Below are positions 1,502 through 21,164 of a stretch of DNA of 64,000 nt, in pieces; within the stretch, counting starts at the first letter, position 1; every line of letters starts with the position of its first letter. Both the position numbers and the translations under genes were made by a program. The stretch spans positions 2,294,001-2,358,000 of the forward strand of contig JAWNGF010000007.1 in the NCBI GenBank assembly GCA_037039685.1. Direction: 5' to 3'. This stretch comes from Ceratobasidium sp. AG-K. Lineage: Eukaryota; Basidiomycota; Agaricomycetes; Cantharellales; Ceratobasidiaceae. The notes under the pieces were generated by a model. The model worked only from the letters and a program-made list of their open reading frames with translations, was not told the DNA's origin and searched no databases.

Positions 1502-4500
1502 ATGGAAATCAAAATAGTTGTATGTGCATGTCTGATCGGTCATTTCCCTGTGCTAAACCACATCATTTTAGTGGGTAGGCCCAGAGATGCAATTGAGACG
1601 AACGTGGATACCTCACTTACCCATGTTCGCTCAGGTCGAAAAAACAGATTACGTGAGTGAGCATCTAAAGTGCTATAACTTCTCTCAGCTAACAAATACT
1701 GCGCAATGCGACGATGCGACCTTAGAAGGTGGGCGTCTACTACTCAATCATGATTATTCGATGGCATTGACCGTTTGAATCGTGGCCCAACGTCCTGGCG
1801 ACTGGCTTGACTACTGGCGCCTTTAATCGTGAATACTATCCCAGGTGGGTTACCTTACACTTTGTTCGAGTGTACAGCTGAGAAAACTCCAATCGTGCGG
1901 CTCAACGGTAATTCAATGACTGGACGGAACGGCGGGGCAAGCACAGGGGGTGCGCATTATCTATGCATTGACATTAGGATCATACTGACGGGCAAACTGG
2001 CTCGGGCAACCCAGAATGTGGGTGCAATACCTTACTGAGTGACCTGCGATTGACTGGAAATCTGATCGTTCAATATTATCATGCCGGCTATCAGCCAGTA
2101 AGTACTAAATAATTTATCCTGTAGGATGGCACTGACTGATGGATGAATGTGTGTTGCCTATCGGCTGGTTGTTCTACCGTTTCCCGGTGTAATGGAACAT
2201 TAGGAAGTGAGTAACAGTGGCTGTGAGCTCGTCGGGGTGTGTAACTGGAGATTCGATTATTGCATCCCGGATGCGGTTATTTCGGATATGTTTTATGCTG
2301 GATCTGCCTTCACTGTCCGCAACAAAGTGGGTGGGTACTCAATGTTTCTATTATCCTAACCGTGTTGAGCCTTACAATCACGCGTTGTTGTGCGTGTAGA
2401 CCGTACGTCGCTCTGATAATTGATGCCACGTGGCGCTGATGTCGAGAGGCTTGAAAAACACTAGTGGGTACGTTCATGTGTGATATGAGACGTGGGTCTC
2501 GACTGACTGGCGGTCGGTTTACTCAAATATTAATGAATGCTCAGCACGTAGGTTGACATTCTCGTTTGAGGCTGCGTCAGCCTGACCAGGATAATGCACC
2601 CTCGGCACATGCCTGCCGTATATAGGGTGTAAGTATGATGAGACATTGCGGCCGATTGTGAACATTACTGAGGCGGATTATTGGCCTCGTCTTATCGTTG
2701 CATCGCGCGACTGCAGTATGTGAGTTAGAATGCGCGAGTGGCGACTGAAACGATGTAGAACCGCTAACCTGCCACGATGAGAAAATGTAGACGGTGAGTA
2801 CGCAGTTGTCAGTGCGAATGAAATTTGAGGACGACCTCAATGTGTGCAACGATAGGTTGTGAGTGACCTACATTAGATTGCAGAGCTGAAAGGGGATTTC
2901 TGTCATTTACGCTGTGGGGATTGAAATAGAGGGTCAGTTGTTCTAGAAACCAAAAAGTATTAGATTGACTTCTGATGTATTAACCAATCGATTGGCGGTG
3001 TATCTGATTGACAATAATGTTGCAAGTGCAGAAGGTGCGTAAGAGAGGCAATGAAGAATGTGAAAAGCACCGACTGATGTGACGGATTGTCAAACACCCC
3101 AACCGGTGCGCTCTTTCTGGATGCCGCTTCACGGATCTAGTATGTGCGTATGAGCTGTATGTCGAGCGAGGAGGAGTATGCTGACTGATGCAACCCGCTA
3201 CATCACTCGTTGGCCGTCGCCGTTCTTTCTGGATGCTGCTTCACGACTCTAGGGCGTGCGTATGAGCTGTATGTCGAGCGAGGAGTATGCTGACTGATGC
3301 GACTCGCTATCTCACTCACTGGCCGCCTTCGCTCTTTCCGGACGCTGCTTCACGACTCTAGTGGGTGCGTATGAGCCGTATGTCGAGCGAGGAGTATGCT
3401 GACTGATGCGACTCGCTATCTCACTCACTGGCCGCCTTCGCTCTTTCCGGACGCTGCTTCACGACTCTAGAGCGTGCGTATGAGCCGTATGTCGAGCGAG
3501 GAGTATGCTGACTGATGCGACTCGCTATCTCACTCACTTGGCCGTCGCCGTTCTTTCCGGACGTTGCTTCACGACTCTAGAGCGTGCGTATGAGCCGTAT
3601 GTCGAGCGAGGAGTATGCTGACTGATGCGACTCGCTATCTCACTCACTGGCCGTCGCCGCCCTTTCTGGACGCTGCTTCACGACTCTAGTATGTGCGTAT
3701 GAGCCGTATGTCGAGCGAGGAGCACGCTGGCTGATGCGACTCACTACCTCACTTCTTGGCCGTCGCCGTTCTTTCTGGACGCTGCTTCACGATTCTAGAA
3801 AGTGCGTATGAGCCGTACATCGAGCGAGGAGCATGCTGGCTGATGCGACTCACTACCTCACTTCTTGGCCGTCGCCGTTCATTCTGGCCGTTGCTTCACG
3901 ACTCTAGTGGGTGCGTACGAGCCATACGTCAAGCGAGGAGTATGCTGACTGATGCGACTCACTATCTCACTCCTTGGCCGTCGCCTTCGCTCTTTCCGGA
4001 CGCTGCTTCACGACTCTAGGAGGTGCGTATGAGCCGTATGTCGAGCGAGAGTATGCTGACTGATGCGACTCGCTATCTCACTCACTGGCCGCCTTCGCTC
4101 TTTCCGGACGCTGCTTCACGACTCTAGGCCGTGCGTATGAGCCGTATGTCGAGCGAGGAGTATGCTGACTGATGCGACTCACTATCTCACTCCTTGGCCG
4201 TCGCCGTGCTTTCTGGACGCTGCTTCACGACTCTAGTATGTGCGTATGAGCCGTATGTCGAGCGAGGAGTATGCTGACTGATGCGACCCGCTATCTCACT
4301 CTTTGGCCGTCATCGCTCTTTCTGGATGCTGCTTCACGACTCTAGGCCGTGCGTATGAGCCGTATGTCGAGCGAGGGGTATGCTGACTGATGTGACCCCC
4401 TATCTCACTCCTTGGCCATCGCCATTCTTTCTGGACGCTGCTTCACGATTCTAGAAAGTGCGTATGAACTGTATGTAGAGAGAGGAGTATGCTGACTGAT

Positions 4501-7500
4501 GCGACTCACTATCTCACTCCTTGGCCGTCGCCATTCTTTCTGGGCGTTCCTTCACGACTCTAGACCGTGCGTTTGAGCCGTACATCAAGCGAGGAGTATG
4601 CTGACTGATGCGACTCGCTATCTCAATTTTTTGCCGTCGCCGTTCTTTCTGGACGCTGCTTCACGACTCCAGAGTGTGCGTATATGACTCCACCGCGAGT
4701 AGGTGCTAAGCTGAATCGCACTGTACTCCTCTTCGCTTCGCGCTTCTCACCGCCTTCTGCAACTTTGCACTCTCCGTTAGTTTGTCAGTTCTTCTGTGCT
4801 GTCTCCCAGCGATCACTCTCTGATTGTTACTGGATATCTTGCATGCCTTCACATCTAGCCTGTTTGTTCCTTTTCGCTTCCCCTCTTATCCTACCTTCGA
4901 CGCTAATAACTCCATTATCTCATCTCACAATAGACTGTTCGTTCTCTTCCTTGAGCCGTATATCGAGCGAGGAGTATGCTGACTGATGCGACCCGCTATC
5001 TCACTCCTTGGCCGCCTTCGCTCTTTCCGGACGCTGCTTCACGACTCTAGGCCGTGCGTATGAGCCGTATGTCGAGCGAGGAGTATGCTGACTGATGCGA
5101 CTCGCTATCTCACTCACTGGCCGTCGCCGTTCTTTCTGGACGCTGCTTCACGACTCTAGAGCGTGCGTATGAGCCGTATGTCGAGCGAGGAGTATGCTGA
5201 CTGATGCGACTCGCTATCTCACTCCTTGGCCGTCGCCATTCTTTCTGGACGTTCCTTCACGACTCTAGGACGTGCGTATGAGCCGTATGTCGAGCGAGGA
5301 GTATGCTGACTGATGCGACTCGCTATCTCACTCACTGGCCGCCTTCGCTCTTTCCGGACGCTGCTTCACGACTCTAGGATGTGCGTATGAGCCGTATGTC
5401 GAGCGAGGAGTATGCTGACTGATGCGACTCGCTATCTCACTTTTTCGCCGTCGCCGTTCTCTCTGGACGCTGCTTCACGACTCCAGAGTGTGCGTATATG
5501 ACTCCACCGCGAGTAGGTGCTAAGCTGAATCGCACTGTACTCCTCCTCTTCGATTCGCGCTTCTCACCGCCTTCTGAAACTTTGCACTCTCCGCTAGTTT
5601 GTCAGTTCTTCTGTCCTGTCTCTCAACAGTCTCTGTCTGATTAATACTGCATATCTTGCATGCCTTCACATCTAGCTGGTTCGTTCTCTTTATCCCCCCC
5701 ACCCCCTTTTTTTTCCTACCCCCGACGTTAATAGTTCCATTATCTCATCTTGCAACAGACTGTTCGTTGTCCTCCTTGCTTCGTCCTTCCCTTTTTTGAC
5801 TGAGCTACAATCCACCCGTACACAGCCTGTAAGTATCCCACCATTTTCTCTTTGTGTTATCTCTTCCTCGCGAATTTAACTCAACTCGTCCACAGGACGT
5901 AAGCCTCCTCCAAGCTCCCTTCGTACGACGTTGTACACGCTGACATGGGCCCGACTGTTATCTTAGGAAGTAAGTTCATCATACTCCGCTCCCCCAGCCA
6001 ACTCTCACATAATTTTCAGGCTGTGTGTCATCTTCTCTTCAGTTCACGCTCTTCTTCTCACCGCGGTTCGCGAAATTCCCTATAGAAGGTTCGTTCCTTC
6101 ATTTGGCTCCCGCGGTCAACTAGACTAGCTGCTTTATCGCTAACCTGCCTCGTCATAGAATGTATGCTCGTCTTTTCCACTTATCATTTACTTTATACCT
6201 CCATTCACCTACGTAATTCCAGGATGTACGTGCTCTCTTCACGCGCACGCCTCTATGTCTAACTCGCTTAATCTGTCTTACGCGGTCACAGGCCGTAAGC
6301 TTTGCTTCTTCCTTACAGGTGGAGATATTTTAACCTGGGATGTGCGCCCTCACTGCCAGGTGGTATGTTGTACCGCCTCTACTCATCACTTTACCGACTG
6401 AATGGACTTGAACTATTACGGATAGCAAGTTCGTACCGTCATCCACTGTTCCTATAAAATACCAATTTCTTACACCTTCCTAGGACGTAGGTCGACCAGC
6501 CCGTGTTCATCTACACTAATCTTACTCTGATCCTACGATCCCAGTTTCTGAGGAACAATCCGGAGGAAATGCTAAGCGAGGTTCGTACAAGCTCCCGCTG
6601 TTCAACCTGGTACATCTTCAAAGACATTTTTGATCCATCGAACTTGCTGCCATCCCTATGCTATTCTTACACTTACTGCCTGTACTGCGGCCCTTGTTGT
6701 TTTCCCTGCTTTCTGATTCCTCAGGACAAGTCCAAAATTATCACCCGAACAAACCTCAAGCTGCCCACCAAGCCCGAACCCATCTCACCTGCAGTACCTC
6801 AATCGCAGGAGAAGACGAGCCTAGGCCTGAGAACTACCACTAATCAACCTAACGTCAAACCTAACAATCCGGTACACACATCGGTCACCGAGCTTTCACT
6901 TGAGAATGCTCCCAGTGGGGGTGGTCCTAGTGGCACAAGCGCTGCACTGATGGATATTCACCCCGTGCGTGTGTTTTACCGAAGCGACCCGTATCAAGCC
7001 TACATACTCATGAGTAACCCCCCTGGTGTATGCGCTAAACCACTAGTCTGAGAATGTGCCCGCGGGCCCCCCACGGGTTGATTTAAACGTTGCTGAGAAT
7101 GAACCAAATGATATCAGTCAGGACACGATCACTCGTGAAATGGTAACCTAACTCCCAAATATCTCTGCCGTTACTCATCACTTACGATCGTTTTCTTCGC
7201 GCCAGTCTATCGCTGAAGTACTTGAGCGCCTCAGCCGTCACGGGTGCAGGGACGTCACACAGGAGCTTGACCTGTCGAAGTTCAGTGAGTACCCCATTTC
7301 ATCTGGTGGCTATGGCGACGTGTATCGCGGTGCTTTCCACAACGGACAATTGGTCGCAGTCAAGTGTCTCCGATTGCATATGGACTCGAACGAGATCGCG
7401 GTGAAGCAACTCAAGGTGTGGTATCATAATGCATGCGCCGAGAACACACATCTCTAACCTGACATTCAGCGTGCAGCCCGAGAGCTCTATGTGTGGTCGA

Positions 7501-8560
7501 AATGTGATCACCCAAACGTGCTGGTGCTGATGGGAGTGGGCCAATATCGGAACCAGGTTGCAATGGTATCGCCGTGGATGGAGTATGGGAACGTCCGGCG
7601 TTTGCTCTCTTTGAAGCCCCAAGTCGATCGATTCGCCCTGGTATGGTTATCACGATAATTCACCATAACTATGTCTAAGCTCATTTCCCAGTGCCTCCAA
7701 GTCGCCAACGGCATTGCTTATTTGCACGACGTGGATGTTGTGAGTGGCATTCTTTGATGAATACTGTGTAAAGTTGCTGCTTAAGCCATCGCCGCTCACA
7801 GATACATGGAGACCTCAAAGGCGTATGGCCCGAGTGCTATCCTTGAATCCATCTAGCCGATACTCACTTTATGTTTCCTAGGACAATGTTCTGGTTTCAG
7901 GTGATATCGTCTCCAAGGTGACCGATTTCGGGAATGCCGCGCTGCGAGAGTATACTCTGCTGTTTTCGAAGACCACTAGTAGGGCCGGCATGTCGCTCAA
8001 CTGGGTGGTGCGTATCACAACCCTTGAAGTTTAAGTGATGATATTATGACGAAGACTAGGCTCCTGAGGTACTTAACGAAGAAACCGGCCTGACTGCAGA
8101 AGCAGATGTGTACTCGCTTGGAATGGTACGGTTCAAATATGTTGCTTTATCAAGGTCTACCAGCTAAAGTAATTTCCTAGACGATATTTGTATGTTATCG
8201 AATGATCGCTGAGATCTGCGCGATACTCAAGAAGTCTGATAGGAAATTATCACTGGCTCTCCCCCATACGTTGGTCTGCGAGACTTCATCATCATGAAGA
8301 ATATCATGACTGGTGTGCACCCTATCCGACCTGAGGGCGATATTCCCACAGGGACAATGTATGCCGATCTGTTGTGGTCGCTGCTCAAAAGCTGCTGGGC
8401 ATTTAGTCCCAAGGACCGCCCAACCTCCACCGAGGTGTGGGACAAGGTCAGTAAATCAGGTCATAGCCAGTTCGACATCTAAACGATGCTTGTGCAGATG
8501 AAGGAGGTTATCTCTGAAAGGGAGAAGCATACGGTTTCTGGAGGGGAGAAGGAGAACTAA
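1502..8560 (+). CDS. TKL-type protein kinase with a chain of single-codon micro-exons
   Basis: Protein kinase of about 504 aa read as 69 exons. The catalytic part is clear. The exons 6725-6964, 7047-7142, 7206-7415, 7470-7640, 7692-7739, 7802-7822, 7882-8007, 8060-8125, 8181-8189, 8243-8446 and 8498-8560 join in one frame. They give a glycine loop (SSGGYGDVYRG), the VAVK lysine, HGDLKGDN in place of HRDLKxxN, DFG, an APE motif and a conserved C-lobe ending in GGEKEN-stop. Upstream, exon 6545-6580 (FLRNNPEEMLSE) is preceded by 53 candidate 3-nt exons. Two longer exons (1635-1652, 1878-1907) and a start exon lie further up: ATG at 1502 in the context caccATGG, exon 1502-1519. Every exon length is a multiple of three, so all 68 introns are phase 0. 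The 3' half is near certain; the 5' half is an inference from splice signals and frame. A shorter product starting near 6503 or 6568 is the main alternative. The kinase substrate is unknown. Confidence 0.75.
3035..4675 (+). repeat. 109-bp tandem satellite, block 1 (intron plus one-codon exon units)
   Basis: Fifteen near-identical units repeat at about 109 bp; measured steps are 108-112, mostly 109. A more divergent founder-like unit at 3035-3140 precedes them, already 106 nt long with the same ends. Each unit starts gtgcgtatgagc, has gctgactgatgcgac in the middle and ends gcttcacgactctag. A triplet then follows before the next gtgcgt. The triplet is the most variable part (TAT, GGC, TGG, AGC, AAA, GAG, GCC, ACC, AGT) while its AG and GT borders do not change. 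The unit is therefore an intron of 106 nt plus a 3-nt exon. 109 is not a multiple of three, so unspliced readthrough would not keep frame. Confidence 0.9.
4937..5489 (+). repeat. 109-bp tandem satellite, block 2
   Basis: Five further units of the same 109-bp repeat lie here, with variable triplets GCC, AGC, GAC, GAT and AGT at 5051, 5160, 5269, 5378 and 5487. The first intron (4937-5050) is a hybrid: it begins with the gttcgttctcttcc end of the preceding non-satellite intron and joins the repeat at about 4951. This looks like an unequal-exchange junction. The block leads into a second copy of the flank that follows block 1. Confidence 0.9.
5490..5761 (+). repeat. Second copy of the array flank (segmental duplicate of 4676-4936)
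   Basis: Both flanks start gtgcgtatatgactccaccg and share most of their sequence, including catctag and tagttccat-like parts. Each carries three candidate one-codon exons at matching places: TTT 4781, CCT 4859, ACT 4934 in the first copy; TTT 5598, CTG 5676, ACT 5759 in the second. The second exon has changed codon (CCT to CTG) while the surrounding AG and GT are kept. The second copy also has an expanded C/T run near 5695-5715. Confidence 0.8.
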
Positions 8561-9360
8561 ACGCGGTATGGAAAATAAGAAACGAAGGTGGCCAAAGTTC
8601 TGCATGTCTGCTGAAGGTCTTGTAAATGTGTGCGAATGAAGGAATTAGGTTCTGGGTAAAATCAGCTACTTGCGCTAAACAGGATTGTTTGCAAAGCCCC
8701 GACAGCAAGGTGTCGCTCGGCCTTGCAATGCGATTGAGTTATGATACGTACAGTAGGTTGACATCTCATGTAGATAGCTAGGATTCTCGACGTATGAGCT
8801 CAATCGTCGACTCGTCCCGGTACCTTGCAGCTAGCGGTAGTGCCCATTTCGGGGCCGTATGATGGTTCAACATTGAAATACTACCAACTATCGAGCCTGC
8901 CGGGCCGGAAGTGGACGGGTTCTGGTTCTCCCTTGCAAAGGTACCGTCATGTGGGCGTTGATGGAAGCTTCTCTTTGGCGCGGCGCGGCGGGACCTGGAC
9001 AGAGTTCCGGACGCTATACCTGGGACATAGAATGGCATAGAATGTTGTGGAATGCATGCGCATACAATCTATATATCAAATTTACCACGGGTCACCCAGT
9101 GGTGAAGGAAATTCAACCAGATGGCCGACGCGAGCCTCGTTTCAGTGACAAATTCTGGGGAGCATTTGATGAAACTTGACACCAGGTCAAATGCGCACGA
9201 GGACGAAAAAAAGCCTCGTGGGAGATTCGTGCTGTCAGCCCATCGGCGATCAAACGCGACCCAGGGCCAAGCAAGAGCAAACTAATAAACGCCAAAAAAA
9301 ATCGCAGAATTAGAATACATTGTCTTGTGACTTTTGGTTGTATCGGGCGACGTGTCAATA
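8561..9360. other. Intergenic region, no supported gene
   Basis: This is the stretch after the kinase stop. Short open frames at 8825-9040 and 8949-9179 contain phrases such as VDGSFSLARRGG and FTTGHPVVKEIQPDG but match no family I recognise and have no clear splice structure. It could hold a decayed small gene. Confidence 0.4.
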
Positions 9361-18703: not shown

Positions 18704-21164
18704 ATGGATTTTGACGTTATTCCGTTCGAGGTGCGATTCTTGGATACACGTCTGAACGGGTCTGATAGTTGGTGCTGTACAGGATATTCAAGGAGATTGG
18801 AGGAGGTTGGGGTCTGGGTCCTTTGGGAATGTCTACAAGGGTCAGTTCATCGGCTAGAGTGTGAGATACAAGTCAAGCTAACCCCTATCCAGGCGTCTAT
18901 TTAGGAATTGACGTGGCGATCAAGGAAGTGCTGCCGTCCAAGGACTATGATGTCGCCAAGTACTTTGAGCGAGAATGGCGGCTAATGAAGTGCGTCATCC
19001 TATACTGCGAAGTGCTCATTGCTGACTGTGTTCTATTCTAGGGAGGCTCGGCACCCAAACGTCGTCCTCTTCCTGGGTCTATCTCGGGCTCCAGCCCCCG
19101 ACAATCGGATCTTCATCGTGTCGGAGTTCATCGACAATGGAAACCTGCGCCAACTCGTCCATGATACCCGTCAACCACTTGACTGGCCTCTACGCCTCTC
19201 CATCTTGACGGACATTGCCCGAGCTATGGCATACCTCCACGCACGCCGGTGCATCCACCGCGATCTCAAGGGCGAAAACCTGCTCATGACAGCCAACGGT
19301 AGAGTCAAGGTTACCGACTTTGGGTTTGCCCGTATCGCCGCTAGAAACGATGATGAAGTCCGGCGGTTGACCTTTTGTGGGACGGATAGCTATATGAGTC
19401 CGGAGATCTTGCTGGGAGAGGAATTTGATCTTCCCACGGATGTGTTTTCAATGGGCGTAATATTCTGCGAAGTGATTGCGAGAAGGTTGGCGGACGATAA
19501 TGTTTTCAAGGTATGTCTATCTCGTTGATCGCCTCGGACCCTAATTAATTGATCTCGGTAGCGTTCGGCCCCTAATTGGGCTTTAGATGCCGGTGAAGTC
19601 CGAGCCCGTGCGTCCCTGGTTGTCCGCCAGATTTGGTCGACCTGGCACTCGATATGTGTGCCACGAATCCACAAGCGCGGCCCGTTATGCGTGATGTCCT
19701 CACTCGACTTCGAGCTATTGAGCTCGGGGTCCTCGAACAAGCCGGTGACGCACATGTCGGGAGTGTCAAATTCTTCACAGCTGGTGGTCGAAAGAGGCCC
19801 GGTCCTGCACTACGGATACCAAGCTTCGGTATGGGGGTCGGGAGCGAAATACGCCACAACGGGGATGGCAAGAAGGATATCCAGCCAGATGAAGGCTCAG
19901 ACAAGGAGCTAGATGACGCGGTGCGCACATTGGACAAGATTCGCGTTAGTAAAGGACCTCCCAATATCTTGCCTCCCGAGCATGGTCGAACTCCCGCGTC
20001 GGAGAAGAGTCGATGGGAGTCTCCCAGGTGGGACGGTGACTCAATGTACTACACTCAGCGTTCAGGGGATTTTGGTGAGTCTATTATATGGTCCAATATT
20101 ATTTATTACTAATAGTGATCCTTTTAGGCTACATCCCTAGTGAACCTGGCTCAGACTCGGCTTCGCCGTTGCTCCAAGATACCCCCACCGTGGTAGCACA
20201 AGGTCCCCCAACTGCCAATCCTCCATCCTTCCATAACCCCGGGACTCAATCCCAATTCTCCACCTACAGCGAAACAGTAGTACAGATGCATGGGGGGGAT
20301 GTTCGTACATCGACACCGTCAGTGATGAGCACGGCTCCACCCTCGGGTATATCAACTGCCAAGCCTTCAGTCTTTCAGGATACAACTTCGGCCATGACTG
20401 TTCGTGCATCGCCAGCGACAGGCGCCGGTCCATTACCCCCACCAGCTCACGAGTCCGAGGCGTCTGCTATGTCGATCGATGATGCTTCACAGGTGTCCAA
20501 AATTCTTCAAGTCGATGCCTCACAGAACCCAAGCTCGAAGATGTCGGTAGATAGTTACCATACCGCTTCGTCCGCGATCTCCGCCCCACCCACAGATTCA
20601 GTTGCAATGGGCTCGATTGCGGGGGCAACCGAAGGCTCAACCCCCACCGTTCTTGTCGAGCCTTCTTACATTCATCGATGGACAATTATCAAGCCTGGTT
20701 CCGCGCGGAAGGGCTCGTTTTCTGGGCCAGCGCCTGCCTCGGCCGGGCGAGGAGCTGCTACTTCACCGCCTCCTCCAGTAGCGCGACCCTCTGCGTCCTC
20801 GCCCCGTGGGACCAGCCCACCCCCACCCGATCAGGCACCTGCATGGAGCCCATTTGAGTTCTTTTTCGGGAGTAGCTATGGGACCAAGTGCGACCTTTGT
20901 GCCAAGCGCCTTGGGTGGGGATGGAAGCCTGTTATGGAGTGCGACGATTGCGGAACGCGGTAAGTCGAAACAATTGGATGAAATGGTTATATATGACTGA
21001 TACGCTTTTGGTCAACCAGGGCTCACTTGAAATGTGCAGAGTATGCGCCTATGAATTGCGGGCTCCACGGGCCTTCGACCGCCGGTCGTGGTGCAGTTTC
21101 CCCACCCACGTCGCCCAAGTTCAAGAACCCGAGGCGTAGATCTGGAGAAGGCGCGGTTGCTTGA
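18704..21164 (+). CDS. TKL/LISK-like Ser/Thr kinase with C-terminal C1 zinc finger
   Basis: Protein kinase of about 713 aa. Exons are 18704-18730, 18783-18840, 18893-18989, 19042-19510, 19562-20074, 20128-20959 and 21020-21164. The N-terminal kinase domain shows GSGSFGNVYKG, VAIKEV, IHRDLKGENLL, DFGFARI and a T-loop leading to SPEILLGEEFDLPTDVFSMGV. A long Ser/Pro/Thr-rich linker follows. It ends in a C1-type zinc finger with CDLC, CDDC and HLKC spaced as in phorbol/diacylglycerol-type or atypical C1 domains. This layout suits a signalling kinase recruited to membranes, but C1 lipid binding is not proven. Near 19619, tccctggttgtccg lacks one G needed to join RASL to GCPPDLVDLALDMC. Adding that base restores a whole number of codons, so this is probably a homopolymer error. 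Confidence 0.85.

Follow-up and report, generated by a model that had tools for sequence, protein, structure and literature searches.

The window analysed here, 64,000 nt of the genome of the basidiomycete Ceratobasidium sp. AG-K (C7:2294001-2358000; 53.6 Mb in 17 contigs), contains on its forward strand a predicted protein kinase gene (1502-8560) whose N-terminal region is, in a reading that we consider highly probable, assembled from 53 exons of one codon each, all in one phase, with a satellite-borne part that would vary the protein sequence. The gene model has 67 exons, each of a length divisible by three, and a product of 490 aa. The chain of small exons occupies 1502-6580 and consists of 53 YAG/AAG-NNN-GT units, two 18-nt exons, and a closing 36-nt exon, after which eleven exons lead to the stop codon at 8560. 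That single-codon exons spell the N-terminal region had been claimed in a first-pass annotation of the window, and the claim is supported by a residue order kept among paralogues, a common start exon, a near absence of stop triplets, and branch-point-like motifs in the introns. The parts of the predicted gene are as follows.

1502-1519, forward: exon 1, 18 nt, ATG GAA ATC AAA ATA GTT (MEIKIV), donor GTATGT
1572-3034, forward: 16 single-codon exons and one 18-nt exon among non-repetitive introns, from pattern matches and a chain model; the single-codon exons are at 1572 (TGG), 1726, 1947, 2015, 2095, 2204, 2328, 2400, 2465, 2545, 2626, 2717, 2791, 2856, 2930, and 3032
1635-1652, forward: 18-nt exon VEKTDY within the chain
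1844-1845, forward: codon-free AG/GT junction, candidate recursive splice site, at a homologous place in the 4 genes compared
3112-4683, forward: first satellite block, 109-bp unit of a 106-nt intron and one variable codon, 15 codons YGWSSYKWEAYAKTS
4781-4936, forward: three single-codon exons TTT CCT ACT, a block that recurs at 5598-5761 as TTT CTG ACT
4952-5497, forward: second block of the 109-bp satellite, 5 codons ASDDS
5598-6486, forward: 14 single-codon exons FLTPDEAKNDAVQD; in paralogues the amino acids of the final 12 are for the most part kept
6545-6580, forward: 36-nt exon FLRNNPEEMLSE, the bridge from the chain to the kinase part
6725-7027 and 7122-7142, forward: linker exons
7206-7415, 7470-7640, 7692-7739, 7802-7822, 7882-8007, 8060-8125, 8181-8189, 8243-8446, and 8498-8560 (stop TAA), forward: kinase-domain exons

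Pattern matching recovers all 53 of the AG-NNN-GT sites that had been listed for 1572-6486; they stand in a single frame, and the earlier counts of no stop triplet and 24 of 53 triplets of RNY form hold. Region 1572-3034 holds 16 of the units, the first satellite block 15, 4781-4936 another 3, the second block 5, and 5598-6486 the remaining 14; 33 of the 53 lie outside both blocks. As annotated, the start codon at 1502 leads into the chain, through the 18-nt exon and its donor, and the final triplets run in frame into FLRNNPEEMLSE and from there into the PF07714 kinase domain. The chain itself stands, with corrections: the 18-nt exon at 1635-1652 intervenes, and the stretch 1729-1946 is without a codon, containing just the AG/GT at 1844/1845, which splits an intron of ~200 nt and is a candidate for a recursive splice site or a zero-length exon. 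The unit spacing, given originally as 39-149 nt, is 53-221 nt from start to start.

The spacing of splice signals in such arrays departs strongly from background. Over seven arrays (15.6 kb), which were selected for holding such sites, the acceptor-donor distance is 3 nt 148 times, compared with 0-9 times for each other distance from 0 to 30 nt; the expectation at 3 nt, taken from positions 9001-64000 of the window on both strands, is 2.3, and the counts at the other distances are near that background. A chain model of our own construction yields 16 single-codon exons for 1502-3034 and 14-15 for 5491-6580, 14 of the latter being listed units, compared with 0 on the reverse complement of either part and no more than 2 in any of the 30 first-order resamplings made per part. 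The splice weights of this model were set partly from these same sites, and the exon-length spectrum is therefore the better control. Branch-point-like YTRAY motifs occur 10-45 nt before the intron end in 102 of 166 non-satellite introns (mean 59 and maximum 73 in 50 shuffles), an excess that is weaker than it appears because the model selecting those introns rewards such motifs. Among 546 plain pattern sites over 18 arrays, not all of them independent given the gene duplicates and satellite copies, a single stop triplet occurs versus 25.6 expected; the count was made on plain matches and not on models, since the phase-0 rule of the latter excludes stops by construction. As a separate observation, no cysteine codon is present among these 546 units.

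One-codon exon arrays are a recurrent trait of the kinase family and not the oddity of one gene. A genome search with the kinase stretch gave 196 matches, and of the 21 distinct kinase loci examined from it, 13 have at least 9 units within 1.5 kb upstream, the other 8 having at most 2. Eight of the 13 array loci form near-duplicate pairs (C3_2622/C3_5603, C6_660/C6_289, C12_665/C12_936, and C5_2274/C5_2117). Seven arrays on C1 are each followed, 191-919 bp beyond their end, by a same-strand kinase match, and further kinase groups are found there: one (A225, C238) with a different N-terminus, MP.P..R..LR.GLR..NL.LD, and one (K189, K209) in which a 68-bp codon satellite comes after the N-terminus MQLG.HS.G. 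These counts of array-bearing genes are minima, as they come from the part of the genome sequence that was inspected. Four other 10-kb stretches around scattered hits (L014, L016, L017, L018) contained 0-6 sites per strand and no array. It should be noted that kinase matches often lie as near-identical pairs on one contig, several of them in opposite orientation (C3 at 2.62 and 5.60 Mb, C6 at 0.29 and 0.66 Mb, C12 at 0.67 and 0.94 Mb, and C8 at 0.44 and 0.79 Mb), and such pairs would represent large duplications or merged haplotypes.

Comparison among these paralogues argues for translation of the triplets. Eight genes of the window gene's group have twelve consecutive single-codon exons in common (2 of the 96 exons were not located), spelling TPDEAKNDAVQD in the window gene and TLDEAKNNAVKD, TLDEAKNAAVQD, TLDEAKNAALQH, TLDEAKSAAVEH, and similar peptides in the others, and the order of the TPDEAKNDAVQD/TLDEAKNNAVKD type is spelled in part with synonymous codons. 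Amino-acid identity is 0.66 at matched exons (322 comparisons, not independent) versus 0.06 at unmatched exons, and differences over the twelve exons in the eight genes number 94, 51, and 116 at the first, second, and third codon positions. Between the window gene and C7_1075, 9 of the 12 residues are identical and intron identity is 0.55, equal to that of unmatched introns (0.55); most paralogue introns around the conserved exons are similarly no more alike than unmatched ones. It is this retention of residue order, although the introns have diverged to background, that points to the triplets being translated codons. In the A225/C238 group, the first 25 exon lengths are equal (3,9,3,6,3,3...) and 15 of 29 residues are identical, with an intron identity of 0.57 versus 0.53.

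The 5' ends of the genes are also held in common. A start exon MEI(E/K)I(V/I) is present in all five genes with the 5' end in hand, and takes the form of an 18-nt first exon MEIEI[VI] in C7_830, C3_2622, C7_1075, and C3_5603. The MEI.I start exon, a single W next to it, and the WTW exons are common to the window gene, C7_830, C3_2622, and C7_1075, and the chains modelled from the ATG in 4 genes also have Y and T.D.AKN.A..FLR..P in common. Some of the models behind these comparisons are imperfect: that of C3_5603, when left free, began at an inner ATG and fits the common pattern once its start is set; that of C7_1075 missed the 36-nt exon, which was read separately; those of C7_2383 and C7_2279 are partial, their 5' ends being uncertain; anomalous longer exons occur in the models of B232, C3_2622, and C7_2279; and B232 was excluded from the pair comparison.

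Within the satellites it is the codons that differ and the introns that stay alike (31-44% and 82-97% identical, respectively). In six arrays, in which the unit is a 106-109-nt intron with one codon, mean intron identity is 0.845-0.973 and mean codon identity 0.31-0.42, and in C7_1075, 164 of the 211 intron pairs that are at least 99% identical follow different codons. The codon columns have the top three entropies of 103 columns in 3 of 4 arrays, and rank 1, 3, and 4 in the window. Codon identity is partly tied to intron variants, as is to be expected if units are copied and then recombine. The three satellites that were probed are found at few loci, nearly all bearing arrays: a 109-bp satellite shared by the window gene and C7_830 (31 matches), a 112-bp satellite in C7_1075, C7_2383, C3_2622, C3_5603, and the C5 loci (128 matches), and the 68-bp satellite in K189 and K209 (63 matches). 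These match counts are lower bounds, and kinase proximity was checked for all but some of the C5 pieces; more pieces of the 112-bp satellite are at C5:2126082, 2155131-2155672, and 2291794-2292197. C3_2622 and C3_5603, copies that are ~97% identical where they align, differ in the number of regular units (15 and 23) and in their codon strings. Larger blocks duplicate as well, since AGT-TTT-CCT-ACT (4673-4936) recurs in the window as AGT-TTT-CTG-ACT (5487-5761). Outside the satellites, a check for an origin by duplication found that introns within one gene are no more similar to each other than shuffled introns are. The variable N-terminal stretch predicted for C7_1075 is GYYYRLTRYVYRDYGGYYYYGVVGYRGDRVVDYGVVD, and the 45 units of K209 spell an E/R/L/A-rich peptide, with A, E, L, R, K, Q, and M together making up 82% of its 45 residues.

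The domain that follows the chain is of the PK_Tyr_Ser-Thr (TKL/Tyr-like) type: PF07714 matches residues 216-469 of the 490-aa product (E 8.6e-42, 143.7 bits versus a cut-off of 23.1), PF00069 also matches the kinase part, and the Pfam scan of the product gave kinase-type families only, with no NACHT or ankyrin and no WD/ANK/TPR match. Protein kinases are characterised by a VAIK-type Lys, HxD, DFG, and APE, and the corresponding AVK, HGDLKGDN, DFG, and APE were read by eye in the predicted protein. Its relatives number 629, and among the 120 listed, of which 12 were examined, the visible organism names are nearly all Rhizoctonia or Ceratobasidium. One further sequence, P0013, a 421-aa protein derived from a 1707-nt contig with the source label 'lgn', is another species or gene, being just ~49-70% identical to the closest loci here. 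It starts M-N-H-FLDGHPEV where the window gene has three single-codon exons, V, Q, and D, and then FLRNNPEE; if its origin is a transcript, as we guess, this start is at most suggestive of single-codon exons being spliced. A search with P0013 (tblastn) also located a second kinase-like coding stretch in the window, at ~19028-19489.

Based on these data, we propose that introns of 50-110 nt would each be recognised as one unit and removed in succession, every codon being joined in turn to the growing exon. Removal of the introns would have to be stepwise, since the two splice sites that flank a 3-nt exon overlap. Since all units are in one phase, the gain, loss, or skipping of any of them keeps the frame, and, as a satellite unit is an intron with one codon, unequal exchange between near-identical introns would add, drop, or swap single residues with the frame unbroken. 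The purpose of the repeated part is likely to be the variation of the protein sequence. The product would carry a variable N-terminal segment ahead of the kinase, folded, by our guess, as a loop in the window gene and, in another kinase group, as an E/R/L/A-rich helix. We further put forward, at even confidence, a codon-cassette system in which one intron with one codon would be the heritable unit of diversification, and recombination would write the N-terminal sensor of the kinase residue by residue, each time in frame. In such a system the satellites would be private to a few kinase genes, introns would stay alike while codons diversify, and older cassettes would become fixed as ordinary conserved protein (TPDEAKNDAVQD, or the helix).

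Several points weigh against assembly of the N-terminus from single-codon exons or against the use we suggest for it. The splicing of the units is deduced from genomic sequence, and phase 0 was imposed on all introns of the final models, with the kinase part read by hand; the first models, in which any exon phase was allowed, gave frame-shifted chains for several paralogues. The spliced N-terminus had no protein match at E<=10 (38 and 12 candidates scored) in searches confined to proteins that share short words with the query and have 0.55-1.75 times its length, and it found neither a convincing Pfam family nor a solved structure (PDB). The lone stop is a TAG in array K189 (L057, reverse-complement position 2587) within TAGTAGGTGAGT; use of the second TAG as acceptor is possible and would leave no codon. 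Genome-wide, the excess of YAG-NNN-GTRAGT, which represents one donor class, is modest (1782, versus 1557 with a spacing of 4 nt and 1623 with 2 nt), which indicates that the arrays are concentrated and not general, and the count of AGNNNGTAAGT is below that of its reversed control (1666 versus 1847). The A225/C238 pair has 14, 7, and 10 differences by codon position, with no excess at the third, and between the window gene and its 90% paralogue, 30 non-satellite codons show 8 changes, which all lie at positions 1-2, with none at position 3. In this closest pair, amino-acid replacement in the codons proceeds at about the rate of base change in the introns, a pattern that fits relaxed or diversifying selection and not constraint. 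Finally, a recognition role, the use that we regard as most likely, is a guess drawn from analogy with the diversifying repeat domains of fungal receptors such as NLRs.

Among other explanations, the one that retains most weight, as a possible but clearly less probable account that is compatible with constant assembly of the chain, is that the units are alternatively spliced single-codon cassettes from which one gene would obtain many N-termini. All 53 units are of 3 nt and phase 0, so that the frame would survive the skipping of any of them, and there is a precedent in what excerpts of four articles say of truffle NLR genes (PMC9815663, PMC4986451, PMC3689799, PMC10197012). Against this, TPDEAKNDAVQD, a conserved block, and the other group's helix-like composition resemble fixed segments and argue for constant inclusion there, and diversity is already provided by variation in the DNA. 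It is very improbable that the array is a decaying relic, in which case kinase transcripts would start near 6500 and the chain before that point would be part of a pseudogene. The 8 kinase loci without an array in the 1.5 kb upstream would be in keeping with decay, as would the ~7 kb insert in a satellite intron of the 90% identical paralogue C7_830 (C7:832.6-839.5 kb; L049, L054), which splits its codon array; but splice dinucleotides and sense codons are intact in 53 of 53 window units, and over window positions 5151-8600 the donor hexamers differ from those of the paralogue at 6 of 180 bases (2 more gapped), compared with 207 of 1848 in introns.

We consider it very improbable indeed that the array is a long non-coding intron region whose triplets are untranslated by-products of a satellite rich in splice sites. 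A satellite copies its own splice signals and would alone yield regular AG-NNN-GT, and the failure of the database searches to match the predicted N-terminus would be consistent with this; the units outside the satellite blocks, the residue order conserved between genes with unalignable introns, the near absence of stops, and the common start exon all argue the contrary. A double-stranded-RNA-binding domain, which would make the product an RNA-sensing kinase, was prompted by the EAKNAAV end, the ...DEAKNAAV..FL sequence recalling what we take to be the last helix of that domain, and is scarcely credible; it was dropped, since none of 4 members gave such a Pfam match with the threshold relaxed to E<=10, and the PDB scan found none either.

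Upstream of the gene is a perfect inverted repeat (95-1211) with arms of 546 nt at 95-640 and 666-1211 that are 100% complementary around a 25-nt spacer, ending 290 bp before the ATG at 1502. This could be a young foldback element or an assembly artefact, and a hairpin RNA is possible.

The coding sequence of schistosome micro-exon genes, whose products are secreted, is likewise made up of many tiny one-phase exons, and the symmetry of small exons is found in the model of the window gene too, but the schistosome exons are mostly longer than one codon and belong to another phylum and other proteins. The NACHT-ankyrin (nank) genes of the truffle Tuber melanosporum, whose primary report is said to be that of Iotti et al. 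in 2012, bear on the earlier statement that no gene with so many single-codon exons was known. According to excerpts of the articles concerned, these genes have dozens of 3 bp mini-exons, comparable to the 53 units deduced for the window gene, their family is expanded, and the 3-bp exons are thought to diversify a recognition domain, with alternative splicing reported (PMC9815663; also PMC4986451, PMC3689799, PMC10197012). As far as the two systems can be compared by those descriptions, the truffle genes are ascomycete NLRs with C-terminal ankyrin repeats, whereas ours are basidiomycete kinases with the array in N-terminal position, codon units inside intron satellites, and variation already in the DNA. 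In the repeats of Podospora HNWD-type NLRs, as excerpted, near-identical tandem units differ at a few hypervariable positions and are shuffled between copies (PMC4986451); the same is seen here at the DNA level (introns 84-97% and codons 31-42% identical in six arrays), but the Podospora unit is a protein repeat of many residues, whereas here it is an intron with a codon and the protein carries the variable residue alone. Fungal exons of 1-3 nt also include, again from excerpts, a 1-nt exon with read support in Fusarium CYP621A (PMC12940212) and 3-nt exons in lipS of Dactylellina (PMC5639578), where there are one or two per gene and not tens consecutively. Long rows of one-codon exons are, on the strength of these excerpts, known in one other fungal family, that of the truffle NACHT-ankyrin genes. 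A search over 5.39 million papers of the open-access literature found no report of kinases with one-codon exon arrays, and the kinase context, the N-terminal location, and the codon satellites with constant introns appear to be new.

If our proposal is true, codon cassettes would be a route to new protein sequence unlike any known to us. Tens of successive 3-nt exons would probe the lower limit of exon recognition, and the order of splicing and the way in which the spliceosome reads such a transcript would become measurable. Gene catalogues of such fungi would miss many kinase N-termini, as is indicated by the window gene, for whose N-terminus the searches limited by length and shared words found no database protein. 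If the codon satellites work as we propose, recombination between introns would diversify a protein residue by residue with no risk to the frame, as a counterpart to the repeat shuffling of fungal receptors.

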